The notes under the pieces are model-generated. The model searched no databases. It was not told the origin of the DNA and worked only from the letters and a program-made list of their open reading frames with translations. A stretch of DNA of 64,000 bases from Zhengitettix transpicula (Eukaryota; Arthropoda; Insecta; Orthoptera; Tetrigidae), in NCBI GenBank assembly GCA_037074705.1, contig CM073590.1, forward strand, positions 218,146,746 to 218,210,745. The letters run 5' to 3'. Of the stretch, positions 22,841 through 45,366 are shown one piece after another. The translations under genes were made by a program, and so were the position numbers. Position 1 is the first letter of the stretch. Each line of letters opens with the position of its first letter.

Positions 22841-24578
22841 CTACTTTCCCCAACCATAGTATCCGCCGCCCCCAGATGCAGCTGCCGCAGCCGCCGCCGC
22901 TGCTTGGCGCCGAGGACGTTCTAGAATCGTTGCTGACGCTGCCTCAGCTGCGAAACAAAATGAGCGTCCACAATACAAATGTATAATTAATACATAGTAT
23001 TCCTTTTATTTTGATAAGACTATTTGAGGGTATTCCATAATGTGGTCACTTTATTATTATAGAATACATAGGTATAAAAATGGAAATAAAGGTAGATAAG
23101 GCTAACAGGTTATGTTTAAGGATCCAACCCAGCATTCTCCTAAATGTGATTCAGGGAGAGACTTAGAGTAACCTACATCTGGTTGATCAGGCTCTCCGTA
23201 CTTGTCCTACCCCATTCCGAAGACTGCACACTGCATTCCTTGACCGAATTTGAAGATTTCTGGCAGACTGATCCTTTCGTTCCTTTAGTACATAGTATTA
23301 GTGATGATTTCTTAAATAATATTTAACCACCAATGTAACAAACTCTTCTTATCCAACCTGCTGTGGTGTAGGGGTCAGCGTTTGTGTGCGTGTTTTCCAT
23401 ACTGAGAAACTCCCATCATTTAGTCCCCTGACATAGATGAACTGCAACTGAGTACATAATAAGTCGCTAATGGCATCAGATGTTGATGCGAATGTAATTA
23501 TATAAATTTTACGAAACAGTTCTTAATTTTGATGAGAAGATGATTTTGAAACGAAGCGAATCTGTGGATGAACACGGAAACTTCAACGGCGGAATGATCT
23601 ATATGCCTAACAGCTTCAAGGAAGGATACGTATTTCTGAACCTACTATATATATGTTCGCAACTCTAAAAAAAAATTATTGAAAGAGAAAATTTTATTAT
23701 TCAAAAAAGGTTTGTTCGAGTTTTTCCAAGACCGTCTAGCAAAGGTATATTTAAAAAAATTGTATTCGTACATGCCAGTACACACATTAATTAACGCTAG
23801 ATAGCTCAGTTTTAATATTTCTATATTTAATTAACTCCTAGATAAAAGATAGCGTTTATATTAAAATAAACATTCTGTAAATAGTATTATGAAAGACGCC
23901 AGTATTAATATCTTAAATTTCATAGCTTAATAAATGATTATAAATAAGTTTTTTTTATTATTTCTGTACAAAGAGCGACTAATTTCACATTTGTGAGGCC
24001 CAGCTCCGGATAAACCCTATGGAATATTATTAGGTGTCATTTTTCTCGTAGAACTTAAAATAATCGTTTGAATAGTGGGAAAGGACGAAGCTAACGAAAT
24101 GACTTAGTGTCAATAAAACCGAATTTGCTGAATAAATAGAACAATTACCGCTATAAAAATTAATTTATACGATCCAATAAACTAATATTATATTCTATTT
24201 AATTGTAATTGTCATAGTGTATACTATCAGCCATACTGTTCCGAGTAAGTGCTAATGCAGCAGTCTGGTGCTTCTGAAGTCCTACATCAGCAGGATGTAG
24301 TGCATATATCAGCATGTCTCACTTCTCCGTCAAATCATTACACTAATGGATGGATTATTAACGGGACGCTCCTTATTTACCCAGAAGGAACTAAGAATGT
24401 CAGAAAATAACTTCTCCGACAAGCGCCGAATATTTCTTGTACATTCAAGAGAATTTAAATGGGCTGTCAAATTTGATAAGCTCTACGTGCGAATATAAAC
24501 ACATTACTTACAAATTCCTCCGAGGAAAACGATGAAAAGAAACACCACAAAAAGCTGGAAAACAACTGGGAACTTCAT
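22841..24578 (-). CDS. Ala-rich secreted prepropeptide ending YYGWGK, two exons, 57 aa
   Basis: Exon 1 (24578-24512) encodes a 22-residue signal peptide, MKFPVVFQLFVVFLFIVFLG plus GI, and ends before GTAAGT in phase 1. Exon 2 (22947-22841) follows TTTTGTTTCGCAG and runs to a stop. Residues 23-36 are a short propeptide ending R33-P-R-R36, a furin-type site. The predicted product starts at Q37, has nine alanines (38-46), then SGGGGYYGWGK. Gln at a new N-terminus normally cyclises to pyroglutamate. Gly56-Lys57 is a standard amidation signal, which would leave Trp55-amide. The alanines use mixed GCN codons, so the run is not a simple trinucleotide slip. A TATATAAG (24631-24624) precedes a CTCAAAT initiator by about 27 bases. 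The intron is 1.56 kb. The function is unknown. Confidence 0.75.
23098..23285 (-). mobile_element. Fragment of the SINE-like family, inside the intron of the 22841-24578 gene
   Basis: Text such as TTTAAGGATCC, GCATTCTCCTAAA, GTGATTCAGGGAGAG and CCTACATCTGGTTGATCAGG matches the middle of the SINE copies with many changes. It is an old, truncated copy. Confidence 0.5.
23520..23668 (+). CDS. Orphan coding-like exon with a KR site
   Basis: After TTTTACGAAACAG a phase-1 frame stays open for 49 codons to a TAA. It reads LNFDEKMILKR, then SESVDEHGNFNGGMIYMPNS and FKEGYVFLNLL. Codon choice is much more gene-like than the flanks, and an acidic lead into a Lys-Arg site in a phase-1 exon matches the peptide genes here. 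No signal-peptide exon was found on the plus strand between 18.3 and 23.4 kb, and it lies within the intron of the opposite-strand gene. It may be a relic exon, an exon whose partner I missed, or a transposon fragment. Confidence 0.3.
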
Positions 24579-24603
24579 GACGAGCGATTTCACGAATGTT
24601 ATT

Positions 24604-24631
24604 TGAGGTAAGCCTTCCCGGTTCTTATATA
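24604..24631 (-). promoter_or_regulatory. TATA box and initiator of the 22841-24578 gene
   Basis: TATATAAG on the minus strand at 24631-24624 is followed 27 bases later by a TCA (A at 24604). The start codon follows 26 bases after that. Confidence 0.55.
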
Positions 24632-24659
24632 CTTTAACTTAAAACCGCAGTTAGCGGAT

Positions 24660-26780
24660 AAAATATTTAACAGTAAATTCGTTTAGACCTATTTAGTCAC
24701 CAATAAAGATAAGGTGGAAAACAGGTTTCATGCTGAATAACAACAGCAACTGTAGTATCCAGGCATAGCAGGTAAATGAACGCATGCAAGGTTGATGTCA
24801 AGTGAGTCCAAACAACAAAGAAAATTTAAAATCTGCTTTGCCGTTCTACATTTTCTTAAAGTTATAACCAAATTAATATTAAGTGTTATTCACAGTAATC
24901 AATATTTGTAAAAATATTTTATTTATTATGATCGGTGAAATTTATTTGCCAATTCAAAATATTATTCGTCATTTGGCTATTATTTTTTAAAGCAAATTAT
25001 ATTGAAAAAAATAATAATAATTAACTAATAAGTATAAGTGGCTTACATATGTACGCCTACTGTGTATTTTACATAATATAGTGTAAGGATATTCATAATT
25101 TTTTAGTAAAAAAATAAATAAATAATATAATAATTACCATTGAAAAATGAACTGTATTACACAATAGTCAAACTATATCAATATCAGATTATATTTATTA
25201 AATCATTAAAAATGCGGAGTATTATATAAATTATGAAAACATATCGAAATTTGACGTTTTGTGAACCAAGGGAAAAATCTAATATCAATTAACACGTACG
25301 GTATAATATTATCCAACAGACACAAATATAGCAACAGGGTTATTGTGGTAAGTATGCACTTTAAAGCCACTACTTTGTATTTTTAGAATTTTCAAACAAA
25401 AACATTTCTATAGTATTTCCAAATCAGGAAAACTTTTGCAAACTAATGATGAATATAAAATATTAATATAAAACATTAGAATACTTCCATAGGATTTAAA
25501 TGAGCAGCGTTTGTTAACACATTAATGGTTCCTACTTTACGTTTAGCAAATTAATAAAAAATATTGCAAGCAACAACGTAAAAATCTAGTTGCAATCGAC
25601 AATCTATTGTATCCCAAAAAGCGTGTCAGGAAACTTTACAAAATTCTACTAAAATAAGTTTCACTGTTCATCTGAACGAAAGAAGTGTCCTCTTAACTCG
25701 ACACTAATTTGAGTCACCCTGGGGTATTTCGACATTTTTCAACCCCTACTACTGCATCCAATCTGAATCATTTTACCGATAAGGTACATTAAAACTTTAA
25801 ATTTGTTAATTAAATTTAATTAACCATTATCTTCACCAGAACTTGAACTTAACCAGCATCGGGAGTGTCATTTTTCATCTCAAAACGATTTTTTCGATAC
25901 TAATATGACTCATTTTTGGAGAATTTTACCATACCTCCCTCCCACCAACAGTAGATCAAGAATTAATAATTAGTTTAGGATGTAAATGAAAAGCAGTTGC
26001 TGTTTTAGAAGTTGCTGCTCAGTCTTATGAGAAACAATCTTATGAAACAATATATAATTATTCGGCGCAGCTTTGTTATCTGTAATAACCCCTAATGCAT
26101 TTTCAATTTCTTTATTGTAAAATAAACTACAACCAGAAAGATATAAATTTAAATTAAGATTATAAATCAAAGTCTCCCTCCATATAGCAAATTACACAGG
26201 TCAACAACAAAAATTCCAGCTGGATAGGATATTTTTACTGAATTATATGTTTTAAAGGTAGCAGATTCTAAAAGTGTTTTCAATAAAATTCTATCACGTA
26301 AAGGGTTTTTGCAAAATAAAAACAAATTTTTGATAAAATCACTTATTTGTTACATTTAACTAAATATATTATACTTTCTTTTACCTAATAAAAATTGTTT
26401 CTGATATTTATACACAATATATAGGTCTACTCTTTTTTTCGTGTGCAACCTTTTCTTCTCTTTGACGCTTCCTATTTCCTTCTGTGGTTTCTCGATTTAT
26501 CATCCAACAATAGTAACATATTGACATCATATTTTCCTTGGTAACGTCTCTGGATATCACGGACATCCTATGGAAATGATTCAACCTACTCACGGAAACT
26601 GTGCAATGTGTTAGTGTAAGAAATTAACTTTAAAGCTCATCTTGTATCCGCATCTACGCATTGGCATATAAAGATCAGATTGTAAAATAATAAATGCCCA
26701 TGGGCATTTAAAAAACAAGATCTTGCATCTTGACCTTCATCAGCTTCCAGCATGCGCTGTACAATGGTTTTGTAATTAAG
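24660..26780. other. AT-rich intergenic DNA
   Basis: No supported gene or repeat was seen. Confidence 0.4.
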
Positions 26781-26788
26781 GTTCTTAG

Positions 26789-26979
26789 TGGATAAAGTTT
26801 TCTCGGGATTCCAACCGGGTAGCGTCGTTTAATTTCCACAACGTTTCGATGGCTTGCACCGCCATTTTCTTCAGGTGAAGTGAAGAAGATGGCCTGAAGA
26901 AGATGGCGGTGCAAGCTATCGAAACGTTGTGGAAATTAAACGACGCTACCCGGTTGGAATCCCGAGAAAACTTTATCCA
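26789..26979. repeat. Near-perfect 87-base inverted repeat, Penelope-terminus type
   Basis: The arms 26789-26875 and 26893-26979 match with about two mismatches around a 17-base spacer. Read outward, each arm goes from CCTGAAGAA(G/A)ATGGCGGTGC through ATCGAAACGTTGTGG and GACGCTACCCGGTTGGAATC to CCCGAGAAAACTTTATCC. A gene-like lead into GAAACGTT is typical of Penelope-like element termini. Two copies arranged head to head with so few changes indicate a recent insertion or recent inverted duplication. Open frames across it are repeat-derived. Confidence 0.8.
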
Positions 26980-26989
26980 GCAGATACAC

Positions 26990-28000
26990 CGGGAAATCCT
27001 ACATTCCTTAAGGTCCTTAATGTTCCCCAAAAACTTGTGCACTACATTCTTGAAAGAGTTACACGCATTTTTCCCCTTTCTCCCATTTCTTCCAAAAAGA
27101 GGGAATCAGATAAAAGGTTTTTTTTATGTTGGGGTCCATGAAAACTTTTTTTTGAACTTGGCTTTATACAGTTTCGGGAACTTGGTACACAGATATCTGA
27201 AACAATTCCCATCTCTTGGCAGAGATTTGACCAAACTGATTTATGAGCCCTAATTTAATATGAAGAGGTGATAACACTTTTTCTTGCTGTATATAAACTG
27301 AGTGCGGCCAGCGAGATACTGAAATTATTTACGTTATTGAAATATGATCTAATCCTACAGCAGGTTGTTTATATTTATTCCTAGTACCCCAGATAACATG
27401 TCGAAACATGCTCAACCTCACCAGTAATATTACTCATTATCCACTTATAACCTGTGTCGACATGATCATGCGACCTTCCTCCTAACGCTAAAACTACTTT
27501 ACTTCCTTCCCCTACCACTACTCTTTTCAAACACTTTTTTTTATTTCTTGCCCAGTCGAGCTATAATTCATAAAATTAATGAGAGAAATTAAGGCCATTT
27601 TTAAAATTAAAAAATACTAAATTATTAGTTAATTTAGTATTTTTGTAGATTTGCAATTGTAAGTTAATTGCGAATTTTACGCTAAATACAAAAAAAACCT
27701 GAGAGGAACAAAGAAATTGACGAGATGAAATTTTTTAAGTATTTTTTAGTTTTTACCAAGTTTAAGTTTATAATAAAGTGTATAAAATACCTATTCAGCT
27801 TTTTAGTTACACACCTATGTTATTATTTTCCTTAGCTTAATTAAATTTGTAACATTTTTAGAGGCCGTATATTGCAATAGATGCAGTTAGTAACTGATTT
27901 TCATGTGTTTTATTCTACACAATGTCTCGTATCTTATCCGTGTGAGAAAGACAGCACACACAAGAACTACCGTATAACTGATAGCTGTAACAGGGCTTAC
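26990..28000. other. Intergenic DNA flanking the inverted repeat
   Basis: A plus-strand frame (26903-27253) continues out of the right repeat arm to 27253 and may be a mobile-element remnant, but no domain could be recognised. The rest is AT-rich. Confidence 0.35.
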
Positions 28001-28006
28001 CCTACG

Positions 28007-28038
28007 TATAAGAGCAGGTCGAGGGACTGTCCTCGACA
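28007..28038 (+). promoter_or_regulatory. TATA box and initiator of the 28048-30590 gene
   Basis: TATAAGAG at 28007-28014 is followed 31 bases later by GACAGTT (A at 28038), and the start codon is at 28048. The same TATAAGAG octamer is used by the 43098 gene. Confidence 0.6.
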
Positions 28039-28047
28039 GTTCCTACG

Positions 28048-30590
28048 ATGAACGCCTCGAAATTCCTCGTCCGGCTGGTGACTATATTATTCCTATGCTA
28101 TCTAACGTCCGGTTTTCAAATTTCAAGTAAGTGTTTATGGAATGTTACAATTCGGAAAAAACGTAACGGAAAAAACTAATAAATATATAAACATCAGCCA
28201 ATTTTAAGTCAGATAAATAAGGATTTATTAAATTAACAACATTTCATCGCTTAATTTGCGACCTCATCAGGATAAAGTTTTAAAAAAATTTTATGTACAT
28301 TGCTGAAATTAAGCGATGGAACGTTAATTTTAAAAATTCTTTTTCTGACTTAAAATTGGCTGATGTTTATTTATTTATTAGTTTTCTCAATATGCAGAAT
28401 ATATATTTATATATATCATAACGGGTAAAAGACCAGCAAAATGTATCTCGTATTATAAAATTAAGCGGCAGTTACGTTCAATTCGAAAATATTTCGTGGC
28501 AGTTCTTCAATTATTCTATTGATTTTGTATAATAATTGAAATTTAATTTCGTTCATATAAGCCGCACTAAATTGGACACATCATTACGGAAATTAGCGTG
28601 ACTTGGCGGTTTGCGTACTTTCTTGTTTCTTTAAAATTATTTTCAACCATAATTTCTAAACATTGAAATGATAACTTTCGGTAGTTTTCTCTAAAATACT
28701 TGGATAATAAAATTAATTTTTTAAGTAAATTCCTTATCCCAGTATTACATGTTTTGTGTATAGACTCATTAACACTTGTATATTTAAGCTAAGAAGCGAT
28801 GTTTCAGACACCTAGATTGATTCTTCAGGTTAGAAGTTGTTTCCAACAGTTTTTGGATAACAGTTTTTATTCTTTAGGAGGTAAGAAAGAATAATGGCCA
28901 CCTTTAGACCTTCTGATTAACTTTCAAATTTTTATTAATAATTTATATATATTATTTAATAATACAAAGTTTTTCTAACGAACAGTTTGACTTATTCACG
29001 CCTTATAATATTCAACGGGTCGCCAATGATCACGAAGTCGACACGACCATTATAAACCTCAATAAATAAATAATATTCAATACGCTGGCATAAACCTTTA
29101 AAAGTAGTTAATTGATTTACAAATCATAAGGAGAGTGTTTTACAATTAAAACCATATACTATTAAGGACAACATTTTGCTGATTAAAAAAAAATGTAATA
29201 AACTTTATCTTCACTTCATGTTATACGAAACAGTTGAAAAATACTATCTTTCAATATAATTACAATATATTTTTATTCTATCGATATTTTCATTTACGTT
29301 CGGAGCTTATTTATTAACTGATCGTTATAAAATTATTCCCGAAAATTCCGGGTATGTTTAATAATCCTGTTATTGAAAAAAATTTTATGCTCTTATACCT
29401 ATCGTTTTACAAATAAAGGAAGTAAGTTTGATTATTAAATTAAACGGATTGGCTCCTCAGTTCTCTCAGCGCTCGACATAATATTCCATGACATATTATA
29501 GGGTAATTTCCAAATCACCAGATGTATCACATAGGAATCTATGGAGACCAAAACACAATGTCGACCTTTGGGATCTCACGGACCCGATCTAATTACGCAA
29601 TAGTGCATGGAGACAAGCAAACTCGTGTATTGTCTGTAACTGTTAATAAAGCATGCTTCTTGGAAGGGATTTACTCCGTATTGATTCCATCAACTCTCTA
29701 CTGAGGAAATAGGACAAATAAAAGTTCCATTATTTACATTACTACGAAAATACATCAGTGAGAAACATGGACAACACACACATAAATTCGAACAAATTAA
29801 AAAATTGTTAATAGGAAGATAAAAAATAATAAATACACAAATGTAGAAATATAACAAACAACAATTTTTAAAAAGAGAAAATAATTAAATGAGGTAAATG
29901 CAAAAGTGAGAAAGTCTTATTAATTAACTGATATGAAAATAAACGTTACATAAACGCTAAAAACAAAATAATAATCACATTACAAAAAATTTGTATTGAA
30001 TAAGAAACTTTATTTATAATTTAAATAATATTGTTATTATAATTATTGACTAATTATAAAGATAATCACTTCTGACAGTAATAAATTTACATTAAATCAA
30101 CTAACACGACCTCAAAATTAGTAATTTATTATTTTTAAAAAAATGTTATTTACAAGTTTCTCGAAATCCTTTCGAACTAGTAATCTTTTTTTCGTATCTT
30201 GAAAACTTCTAAGCAACGAGGAACCGTTATTCCAAGGAAATCAATCGAGCGAAGACAAATATATTTCTATCCGTACTACTTAGAACGGGCTAGTTCTTAA
30301 TTTCGTTTTTTATACTGTTTTTGATAATTCGAATATATTTTAGCTATAATAATAATATATACGCTATAACGTACATGATAATTCATTAAATATATTGCTA
30401 GTGTGCTTCCAATGTAGGTTCTCTGTTTCCAGGTATGCAAGCGTCGAATTGGGTGGACGCTGGATCGGGTCCCAGAGGTTCATTCCAGTCCAGCGTCATG
30501 ACGAGGGGAGCTGATGGTGTCGGTCGCCTAGCGGTCACGAAACAGAACGGAGCAGGTCCGCCACGAACCAGCATGTTCATCTTGCCCTGA
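28048..30590 (+). CDS. Secreted small protein, two exons, 78 aa
   Basis: Exon 1 (28048-28126) encodes a 26-residue signal-like segment, MNASKFLVRLVTILFLCYLT then SGFQIS, and ends before GTAAGTG in phase 1. Exon 2 (30433-30590) follows TCTGTTTCCAG, restores Ser27, and reads MQASNWVDAGSGPRGSFQSS, then VMTRGADGVGRLAVTKQNGA and GPPRTSMFILP to a stop. The exon is GC-rich against AT-rich flanks. It shares intron phase and signal-exon layout with its neighbours, but lacks the furin site, Ala run and Trp-Gly end. The opposite strand is also open over exon 2, with an acceptor-like TTAGTTCAG, so the strand call rests on the exact phase match with exon 1. The intron of 2.3 kb contains an inverted repeat. 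The function is unknown. Confidence 0.5.
28162..28388. repeat. Inverted repeat pair, arms about 85 to 100 bases, intronic
   Basis: The left arm, read on the minus strand, carries CCTGATGAGGTCGCAAATTA then AGCGATGAAATGTT, and ends GACTTAAAATTGGCTGATGT. The right arm on the plus strand carries AAATTAAGCGATGGAACGTT and the same GACTTAAAATTGGCTGATGT. A single related copy at 43520-43615 has GATGAGGTCGCAAAATAAGC then GACGAAACGTT. The family is probably Penelope-like. Confidence 0.65.
29520..29705 (+). other. Unexplained GC-richer patch inside an intron
   Basis: A 60-codon plus-strand frame (29522-29704) reads as ordinary protein-like text but has no convincing splice sites or family. It lies within the intron of the 28048-30590 gene. 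Noncoding or repeat-derived sequence is more likely. Confidence 0.2.
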
Positions 30591-30599
30591 ACTAACAGA

Positions 30600-32005
30600 G
30601 ATGTCAATGCACCACAACAATACTCATTAATATTTTTTTTAAAAAAAAAAGAAGGAAGAAAAAATAATATTTTATACATAATGTGATTATAACAGTCTGT
30701 ATTTTTTCAAATGAATTACATGTTAATTGCTGAATAAAAATAATAAAAGTCTCAATAAATAATTTTATTATTACTTCCATGCTTCGTATTTCATCTGCTT
30801 CAAATAGTGTCTCTAATCGGATAGAAATAATTGACATTGCTGTTTATCCGTTCTTTATGACTGAATATATATTGAAGTTTTGTTTACATCAATATTGAAT
30901 TTTGCTTTTGCTTCTACTATGATGTATTTGTAAGGTTCTCTCAGATAGGTTCAAGAATAGAATGGAGACTAGCCAGAGTAAAGACTTCGACAGGGCATTA
31001 TCGTTCCATTGCAAAGCGGGTGTTCGTATTAATGCGACGCCCTTCCAATACGTTATAGAAATTAAATGGTCTTCTACAATCATCATCAAATTCCTTTTTT
31101 CATAATATGTCATTTAAATTCAGAACTATTTATGATTAAAATGTAATTCAGTCGAAAAAAAATTAATCACAATTATCAAATTACTCTTACCCATATTGTT
31201 GTGATATTGTTCTGACTTTATCACTGATCCTAAAATACTTATATTTTTTCCAAACTGATACCTTAATATTGTCCATCCAGATCGAATAAACCCGAATATA
31301 CAGGGTGTTTATAAAATAGAGGGTATAATTTCAGGTATGTATTACCCATATATAGACAATACGAACGTTCAAAATGAAAATATTTACGACTGTATTATCA
31401 CTTTTTATTCTGAATTGGCAATCTTTCTTATTCAATAAAAAAGTTCGTTACAACATGTGTCCGGAAATGATTGATTTCCGAGTTATGGCCTTCAAAACAG
31501 TGATATTCACCGTGTCGTGCCATGACACGTCGATGTCAGGCCTGTATTCAGAAAGAAGAAGAATAAGGTATAGACAGGCTATATATATTGTAGAAATTAC
31601 AAATAAGTAATTAATTAATAAATTTGTTTCTTTCGGTATTGGCGGCGTAACTCTGAAGTCATGCCATTGTGAGTAACTCAATTGTTGGGCGAGAATGCGG
31701 AGCCGATAATGCTTGCTACCAAGTGATTGTCAAAAATGCATATATAGACGTTCAGGAATTTAGGAGGGCAGAGTGTGTTTATCAGAGAGAATGTGTTTGT
31801 CCGAGCAAAGTGTGTTTGTTGCTAGGATATTTAGAGATAGAGAGTTTTTACGCAGATCTCCAGTTGTCAAGTGTTTAGTGAAAATAGTGTTTTGAACTTG
31901 TTTTAGAATAGTCATAGCTTCATGTAAATGAACTTTCATGGCAATAGGCCCTTTATAAAACCCTGTTTTTCAGAGAAGTCGTAAAACAGTGATAGTGATA
32001 TTCAC
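30600..32005. other. Intergenic DNA with possible element ends
   Basis: An ACAGGGTGTTTATAAAATAG at 31301 resembles the outward end of many insect DNA elements. TGAATTGGCAATCTTTCTTA near 31404 repeats at 40194 and 53430 and probably belongs to Penelope-like tails. No gene is supported. Confidence 0.35.
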
Positions 32006-32007
32006 CG

Positions 32008-32101
32008 AAGGTTGATATGAAACGTTTCGATATATAAGAACCATTATAACTATCCAAATAACTTGGGGATGAAGCTTTAACAAAAAAAGCAGTTATCTCC
32101 A
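32008..32101 (-). repeat. Direct repeat, copy 1, with a conserved open frame on the minus strand
   Basis: This segment is about 93% identical to 33248-33341. On the minus strand both copies read EITAF(F/V)VKAS(S/P)PSYLDS then YNGSYISKRFIS without a stop. This copy has no visible splice acceptor and diverges immediately outside the shared block. Confidence 0.6.
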
Positions 32102-32332
32102 AATTTTAAAAATAAATAACTTTTTATTATCTTTTTAAATATACAGATTAATTTCAAATTCCTTCCATTTTTCTCCTTTATTAAAAGTTTTTATTACATT
32201 ACATTGGCACTCCAACGTGAGGCTTGTACTTTTATAAAGTATAATTTTGAATACTACATAATTTGCCGCCACAACGTGCTGGCATTCTATCTTTAAACAA
32301 TATTAACTATTTAGTTTATTACATATTTGTCC

Positions 32333-32406
32333 CCAACGTGGCAATTCCCCTCTTATAGCATTTGAAAAGAACTGAAATGTGGGATCTGGAAAGGTAACTA
32401 AAGGTA
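32333..32406 (-). mobile_element. Truncated 3' end of the SINE-like family
   Basis: The plus strand reads CAACGTGGCAATTCCCCTCT and then TATAGCAT, a diverged match to the family 3' end. It directly abuts the fuller copy that starts at the next T-rich run. Confidence 0.6.
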
Positions 32407-32830
32407 GCCAATTATTTTTTTTTAGGGCAACAGGCTACATGAGGGTAATCTACGTTGGGCAACTCCCCTTTAATAGCATAGGAAGGGATTTGAAAGGGGG
32501 GATGCGGAAGGGTAGAGGAAGGTAGCCAAGGGTTGACTAGGGACCCCGGGCTATATTTTAAGGATCCTAGCCGGCATTCGCCTAAAGAAATGCAGGGAAA
32601 ACCCTAGAAAAACCTGCATCAGGTAGGTCGGGTATTGGGTACTTGTTCCACGCCCTTCCGATGGCGGGAGAGGGGGTTTTCTGTGACGGCGCAAAATTCC
32701 CCTCTCCTTGCCTTGACCAGTTCAGGAGGCAGCTGGCCGACTATTCCAATAGGAATAGGGACCACTTGTATGCCCAAGGTCTGCGAACTCGGAACATACA
32801 CCTCTCAAAACTTATCGTGGTGCCTCCCCA
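32407..32830 (-). mobile_element. SINE-like retroposon, minus strand
   Basis: A T run and GGCAACAGGCTACATGAGGG open the copy, which continues through the complete shared body to CACCTCTCAAAAC. It is close in sequence to the 2.4 kb copy. A 60-base piece of the same 3' end lies just beyond at 32838-32905. Together these make three family pieces side by side. Confidence 0.75.
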
Positions 32831-32837
32831 ATATTTT

Positions 32838-32905
32838 TTTACACTGCATGATGCATGAAGGTAATCCACATGGTGGCAACTCCCCTTTAACAGCTTAGAA
32901 AGGAA
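32838..32905 (-). mobile_element. Truncated 3' end of the SINE-like family
   Basis: GCATGATGCATGAAGGTAAT then CCACATGGTGGCAACTCCCC matches only the last 60 or so bases of the family. It is a severely 5'-truncated copy next to a fuller one. Confidence 0.65.
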
Positions 32906-33192
32906 ATAAAAATATATTTTTTAAACACCTTATGTTACGTTGTTGCATGTGGCGTTCTGTTCGTAAGATAACTACGAGCAACCAAAGAACCCGGAAACCT
33001 GGCTGGAATCACACAGTAAATTAATATTTTATATAGCAATTTATGATACCAATTAATCACCCTTTTATAGGATAGCTTCCTAACTAAATTAATATTAAAG
33101 AATTACTATTTATAAAAGTTTTCCCAAAATATGTTTAATAATAATTCAGATCACTCAAATGTAAACTGCACGAGATTATTATATAATTTATT

Positions 33193-33362
33193 TTATTTTA
33201 TCTTGCTGCTGCATCCATAATCGGGTGTAAAAACTCGAATTATTGTTGAAGGTGATATGAAACGTTTCGATATATAAGAACCATTATAGCTATCCAAATA
33301 ACTTGGGGGCGAAGCTTTAACAACAAAAGCAGTTATCTCCATTCCTAATTTCTTTCCTGTTA
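33193..33362 (-). repeat. Direct repeat, copy 2, possibly a peptide exon with a KR site
   Basis: The repeat proper is 33248-33341. On the minus strand an acceptor-like GTGATAACAG at about 33356 opens a phase-1 frame reading KKLGMEITAFVVKASPPSYL, then DSYNGSYISKR and FISPSTIIRVFTPDYGCSSK to a stop at 33193. Phase, length and the Lys-Arg site fit the peptide genes here. Against this, TATCGAAACGTTTC inside it resembles the Penelope-type motif of other repeats in the window, and no signal exon was found upstream on that strand. Confidence 0.3.
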
Positions 33363-35700: not shown

Positions 35701-35715
35701 CCGTTACAGTAGGCG

Positions 35716-35747
35716 TATATTAACGATTGACAACGGAAGAATTTACA
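35716..35747 (+). promoter_or_regulatory. Probable TATA box of the 35760-37077 gene
   Basis: TATATTAA at 35716-35723 lies about 30 bases before a TTACATT that could serve as initiator, with the start codon at 35760. It is weaker than the promoter of the 590-793 gene. Confidence 0.4.
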
Positions 35748-35759
35748 TTAGAGGACAAC

Positions 35760-37077
35760 ATGGAACTCACATCGAAGCTTTTCTTCGTAGTGGTCGTTTT
35801 CACTCTGTCCCTGATATATTTCACAGGTACTATTGTTTGATTCACTTAATGTGACTTTATCTCAAACTTGTATGTATTTTCTAAACGATTTAAAATACAT
35901 TTTGTAATGTAGTGATAATATTAAACAGACATTTCAATAAATTGATGTAATCGAGCCATGTAAGAAAATTTGATGCAGCAATTATACTGTAATTCGTATA
36001 ATACATTTGGTTTATGGGTTTAATTATGGTCAGTTAAAAACAGGAATTCAGCCTTGAAAACTGAAATTTGAAGCAACCGATTATTAGATTACACAGAAAC
36101 AATTGTTTATTTTTGTAATATATTTTAAATTATTACATATAACCTGCAGCTCATATTTCGTTTAGTAATTGCAAACAAATAATTGCAATGACGTAACTGC
36201 CGGGGAATAAATAGACAGACATTTGATATTTCGTTTCAAATAAATTTCGTAGAACTGGTCCCAATTATAGCTACAAACCGTATTATTTATTTTATACCCT
36301 CATATTCAACTTGAGTGTCTTTTCCTAGTATTAATGTGGCAAATTCTGGCACAATTTCGTGTTAAATGATAGCACCTACATTTTATCATAATTCTCCTGT
36401 CAATAATTGAGAAACAAATGCATTTACATTTAGTTATTATTCCACCAAATCGAATATAATTTAATACAAAATATTATCAAACGTGACATTATAATGGACG
36501 TTAACGTCTTATGGTTAGTTGAATAAAAACTGCAAATTATGTAGATGTTAAATTGTTTTAAATAAAAACCAATAATGGGTATAATATTCAGATGTTTCAA
36601 ACCACTCCCTTTTTTCTTAGCATAATTGTTTAGTTCATACTTCGAAAATAACTTGTTCTGACAATTAAATAACAAAAGCTGAAGTTAAACATCTCTCAAT
36701 TATTACAGTGTAGATGCCTATAATAAGCTAAGTTCTTGTTTCCTAATAAAGTTAGATATTACAGTACAAGAGAGTCAAATTCGCTTACGGAATTTTTTCT
36801 ACGCGATGTACATTACAATGTGTGGTCACTCCGTAAATAAAATAAAATCAATATTATTTCGTATCTAATTGATATGGAATATTTTCTGTAATTATTTTCA
36901 TGTGTGACAGAGTGTTCTGATCTGAACTTGGTTCGCCTTAAACGCCAGAGCGCGGCAGCATCGGCAGCAGCGAGCGCTGGAGGCGGTGGCGGTTACAGAT
37001 ACCGAAGATACCCAGGATTCTACGGGTACCCAGGATATGGAGGGTACGGCGGTTTCGGGGGACAAATGTGGGGTTGA
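35760..37077 (+). CDS. Ala/Gly/Tyr-rich secreted prepropeptide ending QMWG, two exons, 77 aa
   Basis: Exon 1 (35760-35826) encodes a 22-residue signal peptide beginning MELTSKLFFVVVVFTLSLIY and ends at ACAG before GTACTA in phase 1. Exon 2 (36911-37077) follows TTTTCATGTGTGACAG. Residues 23-34 are a propeptide (ECSDLNLVRLKR) with R31-L-K-R34 as furin-type site. The product starts at Q35 with Ser/Ala-rich sequence (36-45) and five glycines, then R52-Y-R-R55, a second furin-type site, and a Gly/Tyr/Pro-rich C-terminal part, YPGFYGYPGYGGYGGFGGQM plus WG (56-77). A terminal Gly directly after Trp is an amidation signal, giving Trp76-amide. AATAAA at 37161 lies 84 bases past the stop. A TATATTAA at 35716 is the likely TATA box. 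The C-terminal composition resembles nematode YGGW-amide peptides and insect Gly-rich defence or cuticle proteins. Confidence 0.8.
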
Positions 37078-37160
37078 ATTACTCAAACATAAGCTCTAGT
37101 TGCAAATTTTGTATTAATATTTCAAATGTTGTATTTTTTACTTTTGTACTAAAATTTATT

Positions 37161-37166
37161 AATAAA
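37161..37166 (+). terminator. Polyadenylation signal of the 35760-37077 gene
   Basis: AATAAA lies 84 bases after the stop codon in AT-rich 3' UTR sequence. Confidence 0.6.
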
Positions 37167-37179
37167 ATTGGGATAATAT

Positions 37180-39700
37180 GAATACATCTTATCCAAAAAT
37201 ACACCGACACTTAGTGAATCCCAATAACAATCCAGCATATCTAAACTGCGTAACAAATTGTAACCAACAACCCAATAAATTATAAATTCTTACCTGTATG
37301 AACATGCAATATAAACAATAGCAGTCGATAAAGACCACAAGACTCACGTGGCTTTAAATTAATAAACTTAAAAATTGAATTTTTTTAAATTTATGGTTGA
37401 AAGCTATTAAATGAGAATTAAGAAATCGTCGAGAATAAAAATACTGTACTCACTGCAAATTGTTCGGTTTAAAAATATGTCAAAATTGGTACATTTTTTC
37501 AAAGACCTAAACTGATAACATTACTAGCTTTCTATACGAAATTAGGATTTATAAATGTTTTTAAATAATTCTTATATCAATTATTAACATTTTACTAAAT
37601 ACAACTCATTTTTGTTGGTTATATTTTATAAAATTACTCCTAAATAAATTTTATTGAACGGATGTACGCTTGAAGATGATTAACAACAATAATAATAATT
37701 GCAGTAAGTAACTCTGTAGCTACCCGCAAAATATAGTATTGCCACCATATAGTAAGTATTATATAAAATAATAATAGTCTAACGTTTATACTTATAGAGG
37801 ATGTCAGTATTATTTATGCTGAATGTGTTCTTAATATTACCTTCATTCAGTAATTTTAGATTTCAATTTATGAAATCACATTATAATGTATGTGTCTAAG
37901 ATTTTAATATTTCATATTTATTTGTAAATGAAAGTATTTTTATTGTTGATATAAGAAGGAGACCAACACATTTTCTAGCGGCGAATCGAACAATGAAACC
38001 AAGAAATTACACTATAAGTTTATTTTTGCTTGTAATAGCATTCATATTATTTTAGTATCTATATTATATGGTACAACGAACGTAGTATAAAAATGTTCGA
38101 ATTGAAGAACAACAAACTTCCGTATTACATGACAAATGGTTGGGGACATGAAACATACACGATAATTCTCTTTATGATGTATTTTATACTGAAAACAGGT
38201 CTCTATGAAACAATTCCTTCTTTGATAGGAAGTTTTCTGGTTACGAAAATGTGGTATGAATTTGGAAAAATTATTATCATTTTGTATATTAAAGTTTTAT
38301 AGTCGCATATGATTGAATAAAACTGTAAAGTGTCATTGCAGTCAATTCTGCAACTGCAAAATTATATTTACATTTCCGTCTAAAATACGATAATGGAACC
38401 ATTTAGCTTGCATAATTATTCCTTATTAATGTGAGTACGAGAACCGGTTTCTTTTTATCATGGCTCTTCTGTAATTGTAATACTTCATTTTCTTTTCTTG
38501 TTGTTAGTTTCACAGTTATATATATAATTTTTTTTGTTTATAATTTCCATCTTCTATTATTTCATTCATTTATAAAACGAAATACCTGCATAACTTCAGG
38601 TAATGTCTTCTGTCAATATTTTTACACACAAATCAACCCTGTCCAAGAAGTCAAAGTACTATTACAGACATATAAATTTAAGAACAGACATTCTTACATT
38701 GGTATATTTACTGGCCATGGAGAATTACAAGTTACTTAAATATTTATGGTCTACTGTGCGAAAATATGGATTATTTAAATTTTTTATCCGACCTTTTTCT
38801 TAAAGACAAAATGTAAAGATTACACTCAATTAAATTTGTTCAAAGTAAGAAATAAATATCCTGCATTATATACTACACAAGGTGCACGTTTGCGTGGTGG
38901 ATTGCATAACTTAACTCTTAAGGGGCATCCCATATATCTTGGAATCGTTTACAGAATGAATATTTCGAATCATACAAAAGCTCACAAAAACGAATAGAAT
39001 ATCAATTTTCTTTTTGTTATTAGCTAACAAGTATAAACAAAACGTACGTTTCAACGTTCTTAAAAAATTGAAAATATATTTAACATAAACATAAAAAATA
39101 ATTATTTTATTTCCGGATAATTTCAAATTCTCAAGTCGCAGATCACATCCACAAACAAGTTGCTTTTACTATATGCTCGTCTATGATGCTTAATTTAATT
39201 TAATATCTCTATTAAAGATATAAAAGTTTGACTAGTAAAACAAATTGACCTTTCGAGATAAGCAGAGACTTACGATCAAATATAACTTTATTTTTGCCGA
39301 AAGTCACGAAATAATAATTTAATGTAATTGTGTGTTCAATTTCTAACGTCAGGAATTTCAAAACGGTTCAAATAACTTCTTTTATTTGACTTCATGCATT
39401 TTCTGACATGTATGTAATGTGTTAGTTATCATGACCATATTTTAAACGCTCGAACTAAAATTAAAATAATTTTTCGTGAATTCAACCCATGAACACTTTT
39501 CACTAATTGGTTTTAAATGTGATTGCTTTTTCTCATGCATTTATAAAATAATGTTATAAGTCAATATTGATCCTAAGTTTTAATAGTGTTTCAATGAAAA
39601 AAATTACGTCTGATTGAAAGAATATCAAATATCCATAATTTACAGATCCCCTAATCCCCTTTCCCACTTGATTACAAACCACAAGGACCCATTTGACTCC
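37180..39700. other. AT-rich intergenic DNA
   Basis: Several frames of 60 to 100 codons (38093, 38431) translate to Phe, Ile, Leu and Tyr-rich low-complexity text typical of AT-rich noncoding DNA. Nothing else was seen. Confidence 0.4.
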
Positions 39701-39709
39701 TACAGCTAA

Positions 39710-40000
39710 CATTCTGTTGTTTACAAAATCTCATTCTCTAATTGTAATTCCTGCTACATAGGGCAAACAAAACGTTCCCTTAATACGCGTGTCAAGGAAC
39801 ATATGTCTAATATCAAACGTCCCATTGATAAACAGTCTGTAGCATCCAAACATATAATCAATTCTAAACATACATTTGATTGGCAAAATTCCAGACTCAC
39901 TTCAGACATGCTTCACATTAAATCAAACATCACAGCTGTTAATGTACAAGCAGACACTATTAAACTCAATAATTGCTCTGATCCCTTATTATTACGCTAA
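39710..40000 (+). pseudogene. GIY-YIG endonuclease fragment of a Penelope-like element
   Basis: The frame reads HSVVYKISFSNCNSCYIGQT, then KRSLNTRVKEHMSNIKRPID, and on to a TAA. The VYKI...C..CYIGQTKRSL..R..EH pattern is the GIY-YIG-type endonuclease domain at the C-terminal end of Penelope-like retroelement proteins, including its paired cysteines. An in-frame TAA sits immediately upstream and no reverse transcriptase is visible, so this is a 5'-truncated relic. The GAAACGTTGTGTGG tail near 40155 and a TGAATTGGCTACCTTTCTTA at 40194 complete the expected 3' end. Confidence 0.75.
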
Positions 40001-40225
40001 ACCTTCTGTTTTCCCATTGTCGTTGCTGCATTATTGTTACGCTAAACCCTTCGGCTCTACCATTGTTGCGTTTTCGTCGCTTTTGAGTTTGTCAACTGAC
40101 AAAGGCAGTTGTGCCGCTCTAGGCTCTACTTCGCACCTGACGAAAGGGGATCCCAGAAACGTTGTGTGGTATTAATATTACCACTTTTTTGTCTGAATTG
40201 GCTACCTTTCTTATTCATTATAATA
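40001..40225 (+). mobile_element. 3' untranslated tail of the Penelope-like element
   Basis: The tail includes CACCTGACGAAAGGGGATCC then CAGAAACGTTGTGTGGTATT. It ends with the TGAATTGGCTACCTTTCTTA block that also occurs near 31404 and 53430. Confidence 0.6.
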
Positions 40226-40229
40226 GTGT

Positions 40230-43030
40230 TGCATTAAACATATAAATTTAGCCAGATAAGCATTAATTTACCAATTAATGTCACTACTTATCTGTTATTT
40301 TTGTGGTGGTTCTCAGATAGTGTTGCCATATGTTGCAAATGAGTTAAAGAAAGAAATTCAAAGACTTATTGATATGTCTGCCACATTATACTCTTACATT
40401 TGAAGAATGCGGTTGGGCTGTACCTTCAGACGCTTCCTCCCAATTGATTACCCCTTAACAGCAAATTGGGACCGCTTTGCCTCTAAAAAAAACTCCTTAA
40501 CGATTCTAGGAAACAGTGGAAATCTTAAATCAGGGTCAACGCAATGAGATTCCTGTTCATAGGGAGTCCCAGGACCTAACCTCTATCGTGAAAATAAGTT
40601 TAATTGAACACAAACAGTCACAGTCGCTCACTAGTGAGCGGATGATGTGATGAGACAGACCAAGAATTGGCACAGTCATTGCGGCTAGGAACAAGACTTC
40701 CAAGTGTGTGTCACTGTCAGGATGACAGACATTTTATTAATCACGTAGTCAGAGTCCAGCGTCAAGTGTAGAAATATGCTTCATCTCCACTTACCTGATT
40801 TATTCTTCCACGTGAACACCGTGAAGCTTAAAGGAGACAACTGAAATATTTAATCAAAATTTGTATCCATTAATTAACGATGTATATCTTCCGTAGCAAA
40901 GAAGAAATTAATTGTCCAAACCTTCTGAATAAAAACTTGTATTTGAATCTTAATTCCGATAAAATGAAATTATCATTTCGGTAATAGATCCACCATTAAA
41001 GCCACTGATTTTAATTGAGTAGTGATTAGTACGTTTTTCAAATAGGGTTAGTTACAGGTAGTTCGACAGATCATTTCCTGGGAATTTGAATTAATTTAAT
41101 AATAGACTAAGAAATTATTACTAAGTATTTAAACAGTCACAAATACGTCGCTTGAGCCGTAATGACGAATCTTGATCTTCGTATGGTCAATCCAGTACTA
41201 AAATTTGTATTTTCTCAAATTGATCAGTCAAGCTCTGCAATTGAGTCCTAAGATTATTATTATTATAAGTTCACTACAGCCTCATATCATTTTCTCCTAA
41301 TATTCATTAAATCACTTAGATATTTTATGAAACCATAAATATTATATAGTTTAAATATCGAAGGCTTTCCCGGTGTAATTGCTGAAGAAATCGTCCTCGC
41401 GTTTCCACACGGGTCACACAACGATTTAATCGCGACTCTTCACCTGCAAGATGACGACAGACCTTGCGGTCGTCGAAACGTCGCAGTTCAATCGCTTTGT
41501 GACCTGTGTGGAAACGCGACATATTCTTTATATTAAAAATCACTCTTATCGTCTTATGTTAAATTTAATTCTGATTCTACGTCATATTCCTTCTAGGCTA
41601 AATATGATTTGTATTATTGACAAAAATATAATAAAACGCGAAGGAAACTTTAAATATTTATAATGCGAGCTAAAAAATTCAAAGTTTTATTGTAAATTGT
41701 ATAAAAATTGTAGTAATTAGTAATTTAGTATTGTTGATAACGTCAATTTTGTTATTATTGGACTATAAAAGGCTCATCCGTGCATCAGGGATTGGGAATA
41801 TTTATTGACTTACCTTTTTATGCCTCGGGATAAAGAGATTTTGTGATTTGTTGAATATTCAGAAGAGGGGATACAGCCTTAGTGAAGGAGAGTGGAGAAA
41901 CACTCAATAATAGCTGGAGTTGAATGCGATCGGTCACGTCTGATCCGCCTGACGCTACCGTTATTAAACTGCACTGATAATAATCAAATTTTTCATATAA
42001 TTATATCACAATTTACAAAGAGAAAAATCGATCATATGTAGCGCATGAGTATACCAAAAAAGTAGAATTATAGAACTAAGCAAAAATTATATTTATTTTC
42101 CGTAATTTGCATAAATTTTACTAGTAAAATTATATTGACGTGAAATTTTGACAGACAATGAGAGAATATCAATGTGAAGGTGATATAATTTGTATTATTT
42201 AAACGCCAAACTGAATAATAAATTTAAAAATTTTACCAAATATTGGTAATGTTTTGAGCATTCTAAGAAGTCCAGTCAAATCAGTATTCCAGTGTATAAC
42301 AGGTTATATAAATCAGATAATGTGTGTTGAAATAGAAACCCTGATTCAGTTTCACTTGTAGAAGCTACAATAATATTTTTTCTAAAAAATGAGTGATTAA
42401 CACTGTAACATTATATATCATAATACATATTTTATTTTTAAAAATTATTATTGTATATATTATAGCTGAATATGATTCGTTGGAGTCAAAAGCTTTAATA
42501 CCTGAAAGAAAGAAATTATTATAGACTTACTAAGGGTTTCAGTACACATTCAATTATTCAGTCTACACAATATGATAGTTAAAAATCATTTAAGAACTCT
42601 CATATGAAGAGATCAACCCAGAAAAAAAAACGCGGAGAGTATGGTAAACCCCAATATAAATAATGAGACCAAAACGGATCAGACTGTTATGGTACAAAAA
42701 TTACGAATAAGTTATTATTTGCTTTATACATGCATTGCTTGTCTCTATTGCTCTAATAATCACAATTCCTCTATGTCGAGTGTTACACGAAGTAGCAAAA
42801 ATGACTCACAAGGAATGCTTTTGAAGTTTACAAATTTTTTCTGTCATTGTGTATTCTTTCTTATCTAAGATCCGTACATTTTAAACAGGCATAAGGAAGG
42901 TATGTGTGAGGTGTCGTTGTACCCGGATAATAAGGTTTGTTTCAAATTTCCGTTAATTTTGAGAACTACAACCTTTCTCCTAAGTTTTTTTGTTGGTTCC
43001 ATATCTCCTCAGCCCTTATCTGCCACAATC
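40230..43030. other. Intergenic DNA, mostly AT-rich
   Basis: A 40400-40760 patch is GC-richer but has no lasting frame. On the minus strand a 46-base segment at about 40796-40841 is bounded by TTTCAG and GTAAGTG and is open, so a stray microexon is conceivable. The inverted repeat at 41398-41519 is listed separately. Confidence 0.35.
41398..41519. repeat. Imperfect inverted repeat, arms about 38 bases
   Basis: CGCGTTTCCACACGGGTCAC on the left is mirrored by GTGACCTGTGTGGAAACGCG on the right, with GACGACAG...GTCGTCGAAACGTCGC between. It belongs to the same head-to-head GAAACGT fold-back class as 26789-26979 but is older. Confidence 0.65.
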
Positions 43031-43042
43031 GCGGTGTGGAAG

Positions 43043-43077
43043 TATAAGAGGCGTAAGCTCTCACCTTCAAGTCGTCA
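43043..43077 (+). promoter_or_regulatory. TATA box and initiator of the 43098-45366 gene
   Basis: TATAAGAG at 43043-43050, the same octamer as the 28048 gene, is followed by GTCAGAA with the A at 43077. The start codon comes 21 bases later. Confidence 0.6.
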
Positions 43078-43097
43078 GAATTACGAACACCGAAAAA

Positions 43098-45366
43098 ATG
43101 AAGTGGACTTCTACTTTCCTTGTCATCGTCATCTCCTTTCTTTTGATGAACGTGTTAGCTACAGGTAAAACCGTCGTAACGCATTTATAGAAACTATTAT
43201 TAACGCTACGAATATTATAACTATATTTTTCAAATTAGTATAAATCTGAAAATAAATACGGTAAACATTTTTCAAATGCATATCCTCTCATAATATTTCT
43301 ATAAGTGTCTGTACAACTTTATTTTAATGTATATTATTTTTTTAAATTTATAGATTTATTTATATGAATGACCAAGTAAATAAATTAAAACTAACCTGTT
43401 TTCATGTCATAAGTTTTTCACATATAAGTGGTTATGTTAAATAGTAATACTATTTTAAAATATATCTCGTCCACGGCAGTTATCAGAGATTGTTCTATCA
43501 TTTTTTTTAAAAAAAACTTGAACCTGATGAGGTCGCAAAATAAGCGACGAAACGTTATTCCATTTTACATTAATAAATTATTTTTTCTAAAATTGTCTGA
43601 TTTTATTATTTACTATTTGTAAAATATTCTCTTTTGAGTATCAGTCGGTAGTTCTCTTGTTCGTACTAATTGTTTTTCCTTTTCGTGTTAAATATATGCA
43701 TATCTTAATTAGTAACAGATTGTTTATTTATAAGATGTGCAATAATATTTTTCTAGAAATTAACGGCAGATTATGCCTACATGAAACAGAAAGTTATCGC
43801 CATGTTCAGGGAACGACATTCTTTATGAAACTTGGCATAATAATACATCAAAATGCTGAAGAATAGCGAAAGTAATTCTTGATCTTACCATGATATCAGT
43901 CTTCCCAATGTAACTTTAATTTATTCTGTTTATTTTATGTGAATGTTTTTAAACTTAGTAATTTTAATCCTCTATTGCCAAACGGTAGCTCGCGAGGATT
44001 TTTCTGAAAGCTCGCTAAAGGTTATCAGACAAAAGAGAGAATAAGTATCCGCTTTCTATTCAGTTATCATATATAGTAATTTTGTTTTTTGTCTGTTTCA
44101 AGGTGGTTATTGTAACACTTGGCGGCATTGAGACATACGTGTATTGTGTACTACTATGTAATTATTATAGATAGATAGATTAATAATTGTTTAATATACT
44201 TTGCAAAAAAAAAAATTAATAGCCCAATGAGAATACTGCCAGGTAGCAAGCAATTAGGTTCGCACAGCTTCAGTCCAGTTTTAGAACGTTTCCACGAATT
44301 ACTTCCGCTATTTATTAAATTCCTTAAGATAGAGGAGATATCCCGAGCTTGACGATCTTGATTGACCCCCAGGAATTTTTTATTTTTAACTTAAAAGCTG
44401 AATATACTAATTTTCAAAAAGCAGGGGAAGGGAAATGAGTTAGTGGATATGATATCAGACATTCAATCATTTTCAGCTAAATTGGAGCTTTGGAAAACAA
44501 ACTTTAGAAATGGAGACGTCAAACAATTTCCTGCCTTGAAGAAAAAACTTGAAAAACACAGATTTTCTCAACCGTTTCCGTGAACCGAATGTCAATGAAG
44601 GCAACTTAAAATTGAATTTTTTTTCTAATTGTGTTGTGAAATTAAGTATGGATTTTTTAGAAATTAAAGTATTAAGTAGGATGCAGTCGAAAGTTTAAAA
44701 ATAAATTTAATTAAAAATGGTTTGTAATCCATTAAATAAAATTGTCTTATGTGTGTATGTACGTGTGTATGATGCTAAAATGGCTGATATTTGAGTCGCA
44801 TGAATATTTTTCGGATTCAAAAAGTTTGATTGTGTTTCTACCGATGTTATCTGTGTTAAATTTCAACCCCTTACATCATGGGTTGGGAGGAACATTAGGG
44901 GTGGGGGTGAAGGGGCGTCATAAGAAAATAACGCTTATACAACCGAGATTGGAATCAAATCCCGGTTATGGATGTCGCTGTGTTTAATTATGACAGCCCG
45001 GGCAACGCCGGCATCCAGCTAGTATGTAAAAAATTGTAATTTTTAAAAAGAATCTTTTTTTCAACTTAAATTTTGAGACAGAGGAGGTATCTCGTCAAAC
45101 ACTTTCTAAATGTGTAAGTAGCTCCCGGGGTTGGCGAGTTTGGCGACCCTTGCTCTATTTTATTAAATGGTAGCTATATATTTTGCTTAATTAATTCGTT
45201 TATTAAATAGTTTTTCAACTTGGCGATAACTTGTTTTTCAGTTAGTACAGCTTCGATCCCTGGAAGGCAGCGACGACAAATCGGAGGAGCAGCGGCAGCA
45301 GCGGCTGCGGCAGCTGGAGGAGCGGCAGCTGCGGCTGCTGCAGCTGCAGCAGGATGGGGGAGATAA
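43098..45366 (+). CDS. Poly-Ala secreted prepropeptide ending GWGR, two exons, 63 aa
   Basis: Exon 1 (43098-43164) encodes a 22-residue signal peptide, MKWTSTFLVIVISFLLMNVL plus AT, and ends at CTACAG before GTAAAA in phase 1. Exon 2 (45242-45366) follows CTTGTTTTTCAG. Residues 23-34 are a propeptide ending R31-Q-R-R34, a furin-type site. The product is Q35-I-G-G, nine alanines (39-47), Gly-Gly, ten alanines (50-59), then GWGR. Gly62-Arg63 is an amidation signal, predicting a pyroglutamyl peptide with Trp61-amide. Alanine codons mix GCA, GCG and GCT. AATAAA at 45520 lies about 155 bases past the stop. A second acceptor nine bases in (GTACAG) would drop three residues without changing frame. 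The 2.1 kb intron contains a Helitron-like 3' end. A long hydrophobic helix is expected; the function is unknown. Confidence 0.8.
43520..43615 (+). repeat. Penelope-like terminal fragment, intronic
   Basis: CCTGATGAGGTCGCAAAATA then AGCGACGAAACGTTATTCC matches the arms of the 28.2 kb inverted repeat. It is a single copy here, in the intron of the 43098-45366 gene. Confidence 0.5.
44740..45022 (+). mobile_element. Helitron-like 3' end, intronic
   Basis: The unit shares TTTCTACCGATGTTATCTGT, CCCCTTACATCATGGG and AATAACGCTTATACAACCGA with the 21.3-22.2 kb array. It ends in GCCCGGGCAACGCCGGC, then ATCCAGCTAG followed by T. The hairpin plus CTAG-T end fits the Helitron rule better than the 22.2 kb copy does. 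Confidence 0.65.

Follow-up and report, generated by a model that had tools for sequence, protein, structure and literature searches.

Capping of both ends of a peptide is normally linked to peptide hormones and some antimicrobials, and in nematodes the nlp genes are clustered, their expression in the epidermis being induced by infection or wounding. Among the closest described systems, each taken here from excerpts of the papers cited in this text, the nematode nlp and caenacin peptides are basic, rich in Gly and aromatic residues and marked by YGGWG or YGGYG, and as of a 2019 review were unidentified outside nematodes (PMC6780910). Adipokinetic hormones (AKHs) are blocked by pyroglutamate (pGlu), amidated, 8-10 residues long and carry Trp at position 8 (PMC10322821), and the insect myoinhibiting peptides have the form W(X6)Wamide (PMC3390896). 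In attacins, a propeptide is removed at an RXXR furin-like site (PMC7924397), and armadillidin is a cationic peptide with a Gly content of 47% (PMC5031766). We analysed a stretch of 64,000 nucleotides from the orthopteran Zhengitettix transpicula (Tetrigidae; contig CM073590.1, here C1, positions 218,146,746 to 218,210,745 of the forward strand; hereafter the window). From its sequence, we put at about even the chance that five or more secreted-precursor genes, g5, g4, g1, g2 and g3 among them, are clustered at this locus and that four of these encode silk-like, end-capped peptides. The cluster is genuine and well-formed, is apparently undescribed and combines its features in an unusual way.

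What the DNA shows directly is the exon models, the signals for cleavage and amidation, and the fact that the genes lie in a cluster. We use g1 to g5 as labels for the small secreted-precursor genes and give coordinates as window positions unless C1 is named. The features of g1, g2 and g3 are as follows.

24512..24578, minus strand: g1 exon 1, signal peptide MKFPVVFQLFVVFLFIVFLGGI, phase-1 donor GTAAGT
53-51 nucleotides before the ATG of g1, minus strand: upstream element TATATAA/TATAAG
22841..22947, minus strand: g1 exon 2, prosegment, RPRR site, QAAAAAAAAASGGGGYYGW, amidation signal GK, stop
35760..35826, plus strand: g2 exon 1 (preferred model), signal peptide MELTSKLFFVVVVFTLSLIYFT, phase-1 donor CAG/GTACTA
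36911..37077, plus strand: g2 exon 2, RLKR before Q, Ser/Ala then Gly/Tyr body, internal RYRR, end QMWG, stop
43098..43164, plus strand: g3 exon 1, signal peptide MKWTSTFLVIVISFLLMNVLAT, phase-1 donor CAG/GTAAAA, TATAAG 55 nucleotides before the ATG
45242..45366, plus strand: g3 exon 2, RQRR before QIGGAAAAAAAAAGGAAAAAAAAAAGW, GR, stop

The original prediction, made from the letters of this DNA, had placed at these three second exons a Gln directly behind a furin-type site and an ending in W-G or W-G-K/R before the stop, and that is how the DNA reads. On the minus strand, exon 2 of g1 runs through ERPRR into QAAAAAAAAASGGGGYYGWGK and a stop, which with MKFPVVFQLFVVFLFIVFLGGISEAASATILERPRR in front of it makes a precursor of 57 amino acids once the exons are joined. 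Exon 2 of g2 runs through RLKR into QSAAASAAASAGGGGGYRYRRYPGFYGYPGYGGYGGFGGQMWG and a stop, and the joined precursor, opening with MELTSKLFFVVVVFTLSLIYFTECSDLNLVRLKR, has 77 amino acids in a translated join that agrees with the DNA. Exon 2 of g3 likewise runs through RQRR into QIGGAAAAAAAAAGGAAAAAAAAAAGWGR and a stop, completing a precursor of 63 amino acids that begins with MKWTSTFLVIVISFLLMNVLATVSTASIPGRQRR. The introns of g1, g2 and g3 measure 1564, 1084 and 2077 nucleotides, all in phase 1 behind a first exon of exactly 67 coding nucleotides, a length and phase that recur in g5.

For g2 we prefer the first exon at 35760-35826 because it has the 67 nucleotides seen in g1, g3 and g5 and leaves an intron of 1084. 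Upstream of it, a scan for TATA[AT][AG] found no match, and TATATTAA was spotted by eye at 35716-35723. An earlier model, starting from 28048-28126 (TATAAG, GTAAGT donor, phase 1), was dropped with its implied intron of about 8.8 kb; a transcript starting at 28048 may nevertheless exist for g2. The protein, structure, Pfam and NCBIfam searches with g2, as well as the codon tally, used this earlier exon, exon 2 being identical. Taken by itself, 28048-28126 (plus strand) is an orphan signal-peptide exon, MNASKFLVRLVTILFLCYLTSGFQIS, with TATAAG 41 nucleotides upstream, a GTAAGT donor and phase 1, lacking a clear exon 2 before 36911, and belongs either to a further gene or to g2 as an alternative first exon.

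Both the gene models and the motif are far above chance. The strict motif, R.[KR]RQ...WG[KR]{0,2} followed by a stop, occurs three times in the window against a mean of 0.0 in simulations at each of Markov orders 1, 3 and 5 (60 windows per order). Dropping the P4 Arg gave simulated means of 0.017-0.05, and dropping the Trp as well raised them to 1.0-1.4 against the three observed, so it is the Trp that bears most of the motif's significance. As for the first exons, a comparable exon 1 no more than 2.5 kb from one of the three exons was absent from 59 of 60 simulated windows; the remaining window offered one, for a single exon. By criteria that were tuned once the first gene models were known, the window holds eight exon-1-like candidates (simulated mean 0.38), four of them exactly 67 nucleotides long (simulated mean 0.05). 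Real sequence served as a further control: with the cut-offs relaxed a little, four ATGs in the 200 kb left of the window had candidates, and none of these was 67 nucleotides long. Two window candidates, at 48064 (antisense to the large frame at 48033-49685) and at 59895, look spurious.

These results bear on the reading that the locus is non-functional, its GC-rich triplet tracts being open by chance. Such a reading could draw on the low complexity of the peptides and on the 30-bp tandem repeat inside g3 exon 2 (2.2 copies, 86% matches), but the matching first exons, the splice phase and the TATA-like elements all argue against it. Ala codons are moreover mixed (GCA, GCG and GCT in g1, g2 and g3, with one GCC in the earlier first-exon model of g2), which argues against pure slippage. 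We consider this reading very improbable.

The motif also bears on whether these are structural proteins of cuticle or silk whose furin-type and WG features are incidental and whose ends stay uncapped. In favour of that account, silk and cuticle typically have poly-Ala and Gly/Tyr bodies, but RX[KR]R before Q and W-G-(K/R)-stop go together in three of three genes and in no simulation. Furthermore, a scan of the 994 Mb genome (993.6 Mb, 337 contigs), the target of all genome-wide searches here, for G/A-X-X-G-W-G-K/R-stop, a pattern blind to g2-type ends lacking K/R, returned 45 matches, g1 and g3 among them, against 65 in the control. Nine of the other 43 read Trp at the stop position, and none of the 43 had an in-frame basic-basic-Gln within the roughly 300 bases read upstream. 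Incidental ends thus seem improbable to us, if less so than open tracts arising by chance.

In secretory processing, signal peptidase acts first, furin cuts after RX[KR]R, terminal K/R is trimmed, PAM amidates by way of the Gly, and an N-terminal Gln is cyclised. Each of g1, g2, g3 and g5 would carry one Ala/Ser-rich and mostly Gly/Tyr-ended peptide, preceded by a signal peptide, then by a prosegment that is short or acidic, and then by an RX[KR]R site, and these steps in order would yield a peptide ending in Trp-NH2 (Tyr-NH2 in g5), with Gln probably cyclising in g1, g2 and g3. The sites before Gln are RPRR in g1, RLKR in g2 and RQRR in g3; the predicted mature peptides measure 19, 42 and 27 residues, respectively, and each has a single Trp, as its last residue. 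The product to be expected from g1 and g3 is pGlu...Trp-NH2. The original prediction had extended this product to every gene, and for g2 it may not hold: a second furin-type RX[KR]R site, RYRR, lies in the middle of the body and, if used, would split the pGlu from the Trp-amide, so that two peptides may result, pGlu-SAAASAAASAGGGGGY and YPGFYGYPGYGGYGGFGGQMW-NH2, neither doubly capped. The masses predicted for the processed forms ([M+H]+) are 1652.745 for g1 and 2063.042 for g3, and for g2 4228.89 when uncut or 1336.576 and 2279.964 after a cut at RYRR. Mature g1 and g3 contain no K/R and no D/E, and neither half of g2 after the RYRR cut has a charged residue, uncut g2 having three Arg.

Products of this kind would be largely uncharged, resistant to exopeptidases, from which the end caps would shield them, and silk-like; with less confidence, we suggest that they may self-associate outside the cell or form a coating. 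The setting we envisage is secretion, with a role at the cuticle or in a haemolymph barrier and defence, and would involve no dedicated hormone receptor. We prefer such a barrier or secretion role because g1, g3 and the halves of g2 are uncharged and because the poly-Ala and Gly/Tyr bodies resemble silk and cuticle, and on the predicted peptides we would rank an extracellular barrier or secretion role above an antimicrobial one, and that above a hormonal one.

Many neuropeptide precursors differ from the layout found here, which has one peptide region per precursor. Peptide hormones or neuropeptides acting on G-protein-coupled receptors would explain the predicted pGlu, the Trp-NH2 and the convertase site, as AKHs carry both caps and myoinhibiting peptides the Trp-amide, but the predicted lengths, the low-complexity bodies and the single peptide region speak against them, as does the cockroach neuropeptidome, whose excerpts hold no such precursor (PMC12604039). 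None was found either in the excerpts of PMC11787221 and PMC3061863. The word 'Wamide' does not occur in the excerpts of PMC12604039 and PMC11787221, a count that says little because known Trp-amides carry other names there. We think a hormonal function unlikely.

The cluster is completed by g5, which begins at the left end of the window and continues beyond it, and by g4.

727..793, minus strand: g5 exon 1, MATSLVVALAIISAVAAHYVPA, phase-1 donor CAG/GTAAGA, TATAAA 43 nucleotides upstream
window -385 to -729 (C1:218146016-218146360), minus strand: g5 exon 2, left of the window
window -1322 to -1533 (C1:218145212-218145423), minus strand: g5 exon 3, left of the window
16137..16191, plus strand: g4 exon 1, MRSSQLLLVISLLVFVTT, phase-1 donor CAG/GTAACG, TTTAAATA 42 nucleotides upstream
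17977..18113, plus strand: g4 exon 2, acidic prosegment, RFRR before SLVLAALLPPYRI, stop

Exons 2 and 3 of g5 encode an acidic, Pro-rich prosegment (19 D/E, 8 K/R), then RRKRR and SPQYRRGGSSASAAAAAASAGGASAAASAAAAGGGGGGGRGGYRRPGYGGGPYGRRPYYG before the stop; the mature part would comprise 60 residues of Ser/Ala-Gly-Tyr-Arg composition ending in PYYG. With g1, g2 and g3 this gene shares the Ser/Ala-Gly-Tyr body and the terminal Gly, and it has neither the Q nor the W end. The idea that both ends are fixed while the middle varies therefore describes g1 to g3 and breaks down at g5. As for g4, it is a complete small precursor on the same plan as g1 to g3 whose mature peptide is unrelated. Since g5 lacks Q and W and the g4 peptide is unrelated, the cluster is better defined by its precursor plan, together with, in four of the five genes, a body rich in Ala/Ser that for the most part gives way to Gly/Tyr, than by Q...W ends. 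In g1, g2 and g5 the first third is Ala/Ser-rich and is followed towards the C-terminus by Gly and aromatic residues (plus Arg/Pro), and the body of g3 is Ala-rich up to its end. On the right flank, 39 kb past g3, position 84677 (plus strand) starts a 67-nucleotide, phase-1, signal-peptide-like exon, MEFLRSECAGFITIFFITLVSP, with donor GTAAGC.

The composition of g5 keeps alive the reading that these are antimicrobial effectors, an immune-induced cluster acting on microbes like the Gly-rich arthropod peptides or the nematode NLP and caenacin peptides. A net positive mature peptide is predicted for g5, whose basic residues bring the antimicrobial reading into play, and not for g1 or g3, the outcome for g2 depending on the RYRR cut. 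Small, clustered genes of TATA type and propeptide removal at an RXXR-type site, as in attacins, fit that reading as well, as do the three Arg of uncut g2. Mature g1 and g3, having no charged residue at all, argue against both the classical cationic antimicrobial peptides and the basic nematode YGGW/YGGY group, and Pfam scans of g1 to g5 listed no antimicrobial family. An antimicrobial role seems to us doubtful, although it is the strongest of the alternatives.

Several observations count against the cluster as we read it. The mature part of g5 has seven basic and no acidic residues, and the argument from uncharged peptides therefore leaves this gene outside. Kinship in sequence across the cluster appears weak or falls below what the searches detect: the g2 precursor, compared with the whole genome at E <= 10, gave four matches, namely its own two exons, exon 2 of g1 (weak, E 0.109) and one at E 6.35, and missed g3 and g5, so that the search is insensitive to the family as a whole; the last exon of g5 found only itself at E <= 0.001. 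When the prepro regions were aligned and compared with 300 shuffles, the g1-g2 score was not significant, being reached by 40, and signal peptides can align through composition alone. Non-coding likeness between the loci takes the form of short or repeat-like stretches, of which the strongest, 122 bp at 75%, is inverted and lies outside exons. Neither AATAAA nor ATTAAA was found within 800 nucleotides of the g1 stop, and in the 30 kb right of the window, searched with slightly relaxed cut-offs, the one exon-1 candidate, that at 84677, has 67 nucleotides and phase 1 and lies outside the cluster. For other pairs the alignments were more favourable, the g1-g3 score being reached by none of the 300 shuffles and the g2-g3 score by six, and we consider g1, g2 and g3 likely paralogues. 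With g4, the scores were reached by 265 (g1), 294 (g2) and 30 (g3) of 300 shuffles, and paralogy of g4 with g1 to g3 is unsupported by these comparisons.

Searches for additional genes of this kind gave little beyond the cluster. Seven Ala/Gly-rich frames passed the cut-off in the window and the 200 kb to its left, namely g1, g2, g3, g5 and three antisense frames (g3, g5), and a looser cut-off yielded one weaker frame in the 30 kb to the right, at 86725-87009. The strict motif found no further member in the 200 kb to the left. Across the genome, a loose DNA pattern for furin-Gln-Ala/Gly gave 288 matches against 211 in a reversed control, all of the matches listed lying on contig C1. Among those listed are 14 RX[KR]RQ sites besides g1 to g3, as judged from the matched bases, and none of the 14, each examined over 526 bases, had a short Ala/Gly-rich body with Gly-(K/R)-stop. 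One candidate, at C1:257203302, reads RLRRQAAAGWGRRR in a GC-rich frame that no stop follows, and is probably due to chance. Behind many of the listed matches stands one 26-base sequence, apparently from a dispersed repeat and present at many places on contig C1, two copies often following each other on the same strand at a distance of about 3-4 kb. Other members, above all ones resembling g2 or g5, may exist elsewhere.

Comparison with databases was likewise negative. Protein searches with g2 (earlier first exon) and g3 gave no relative at E <= 0.01 among 162 and 110 candidates, respectively, negatives that are weak either way because the queries are of low complexity. Pfam scans of g1 to g5 gave nothing at the curated cut-off, attacin being among the antimicrobial families not listed, and only sub-threshold matches (g1 to ETRAMP at E 0.74; g3 to two families, the best at E 0.002); NCBIfam, for g1 to g4, gave a single sub-threshold match, for g3. 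The only peptide compared with solved structures, g2, had no match at E <= 1. As a control, the 550-residue frame at 48033-49685 (minus strand) matched four proteins in the same protein collection, from Schistocerca cancellata (33% identity), Anabrus simplex (34%) and Blattella germanica (29%), together with one unnamed protein (87%), those from the named insects being uncharacterised or hypothetical. Insect proteins are thus present in the collection, and the matches of this neighbouring frame by themselves mark the DNA as that of an insect, likely one of the Polyneoptera.

Elsewhere in the window, 39710-40000 (plus strand) is a remnant of a GIY-YIG domain (Pfam PF01541, E 6e-05), perhaps from a Penelope-like element. 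An interspersed repeat of about 400-500 bp is present in four copies, 79-86% alike, at 2461-2916, 5618-6104, 10488-10942 and 32330-32826, and there are two recent direct-repeat pairs, 51782-51915/52722-52855 (93%) and 32007-32101/33248-33341 (95%).

A more far-reaching proposal, which we advance tentatively and hold less probable than the cluster itself, is that the genes represent an undescribed insect family that would apply a maturation of the hormone type (by furin, glutaminyl cyclase, carboxypeptidase and PAM) to poly-Ala/Gly, silk-like peptides and so give end-capped, mostly uncharged, self-assembling products from a diversifying cluster, the likeness to nematode YGGW amides then being convergence on end-capped Gly/aromatic effectors. 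If this is true, the pathway of amidation and pyroglutamate formation would have a wider range of uses than is known, extending to uncharged, nearly pure Ala/Gly sequences, and the peptides would be short, exactly defined, natural silk-like molecules. The original prediction, which is partly supported overall, had known of no described insect family like this; the open-licence literature searched, outside which subscription papers mostly fall, is consistent with that, having yielded no insect peptide family of this kind.

None of the known families compared (nlp/caenacin, AKH, myoinhibiting, attacin, armadillidin) fits. The AKH/RPCH peptides share the predicted pGlu and amide and the presence of Trp, but g1 to g3, at 19, 42 and 27 residues, exceed their length, have Trp as the last residue instead of at position 8 and have low-complexity bodies. 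Myoinhibiting peptides (allatostatin B) are insect peptides with a C-terminal Trp-amide, as predicted for g1 to g3, and such an end by itself is not new among insects; each of g1, g2 and g3 has a single Trp, however, where W(X6)Wamides have two. Attacins share the prepro plan, RPRR, RLKR and RQRR all conforming to RXXR, but no attacin family appeared in the Pfam scans of g1 to g5 and the peptides here are far shorter and Ala-rich. The armadillidins, acanthoscurrins and ctenidins resemble them in being linear, of low complexity and of Gly/aromatic content, whereas g1 and g3 are without charge and mainly Ala. The nematode nlp-29/nlp-31 group and the caenacins are alike in being small, secreted and Gly/aromatic in body. 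In g2 there is a single YGGYG, and the end of g1, YYGWGK, comes close to YGGWG. The likeness to the nematode YGGW group that had been noted thus stands as a resemblance and not as membership, as g1 and g3 contain neither YGGYG nor YGGWG and are uncharged and Ala-rich where the nematode peptides are basic, and all three insect genes carry a furin-type prosegment that sets them apart.

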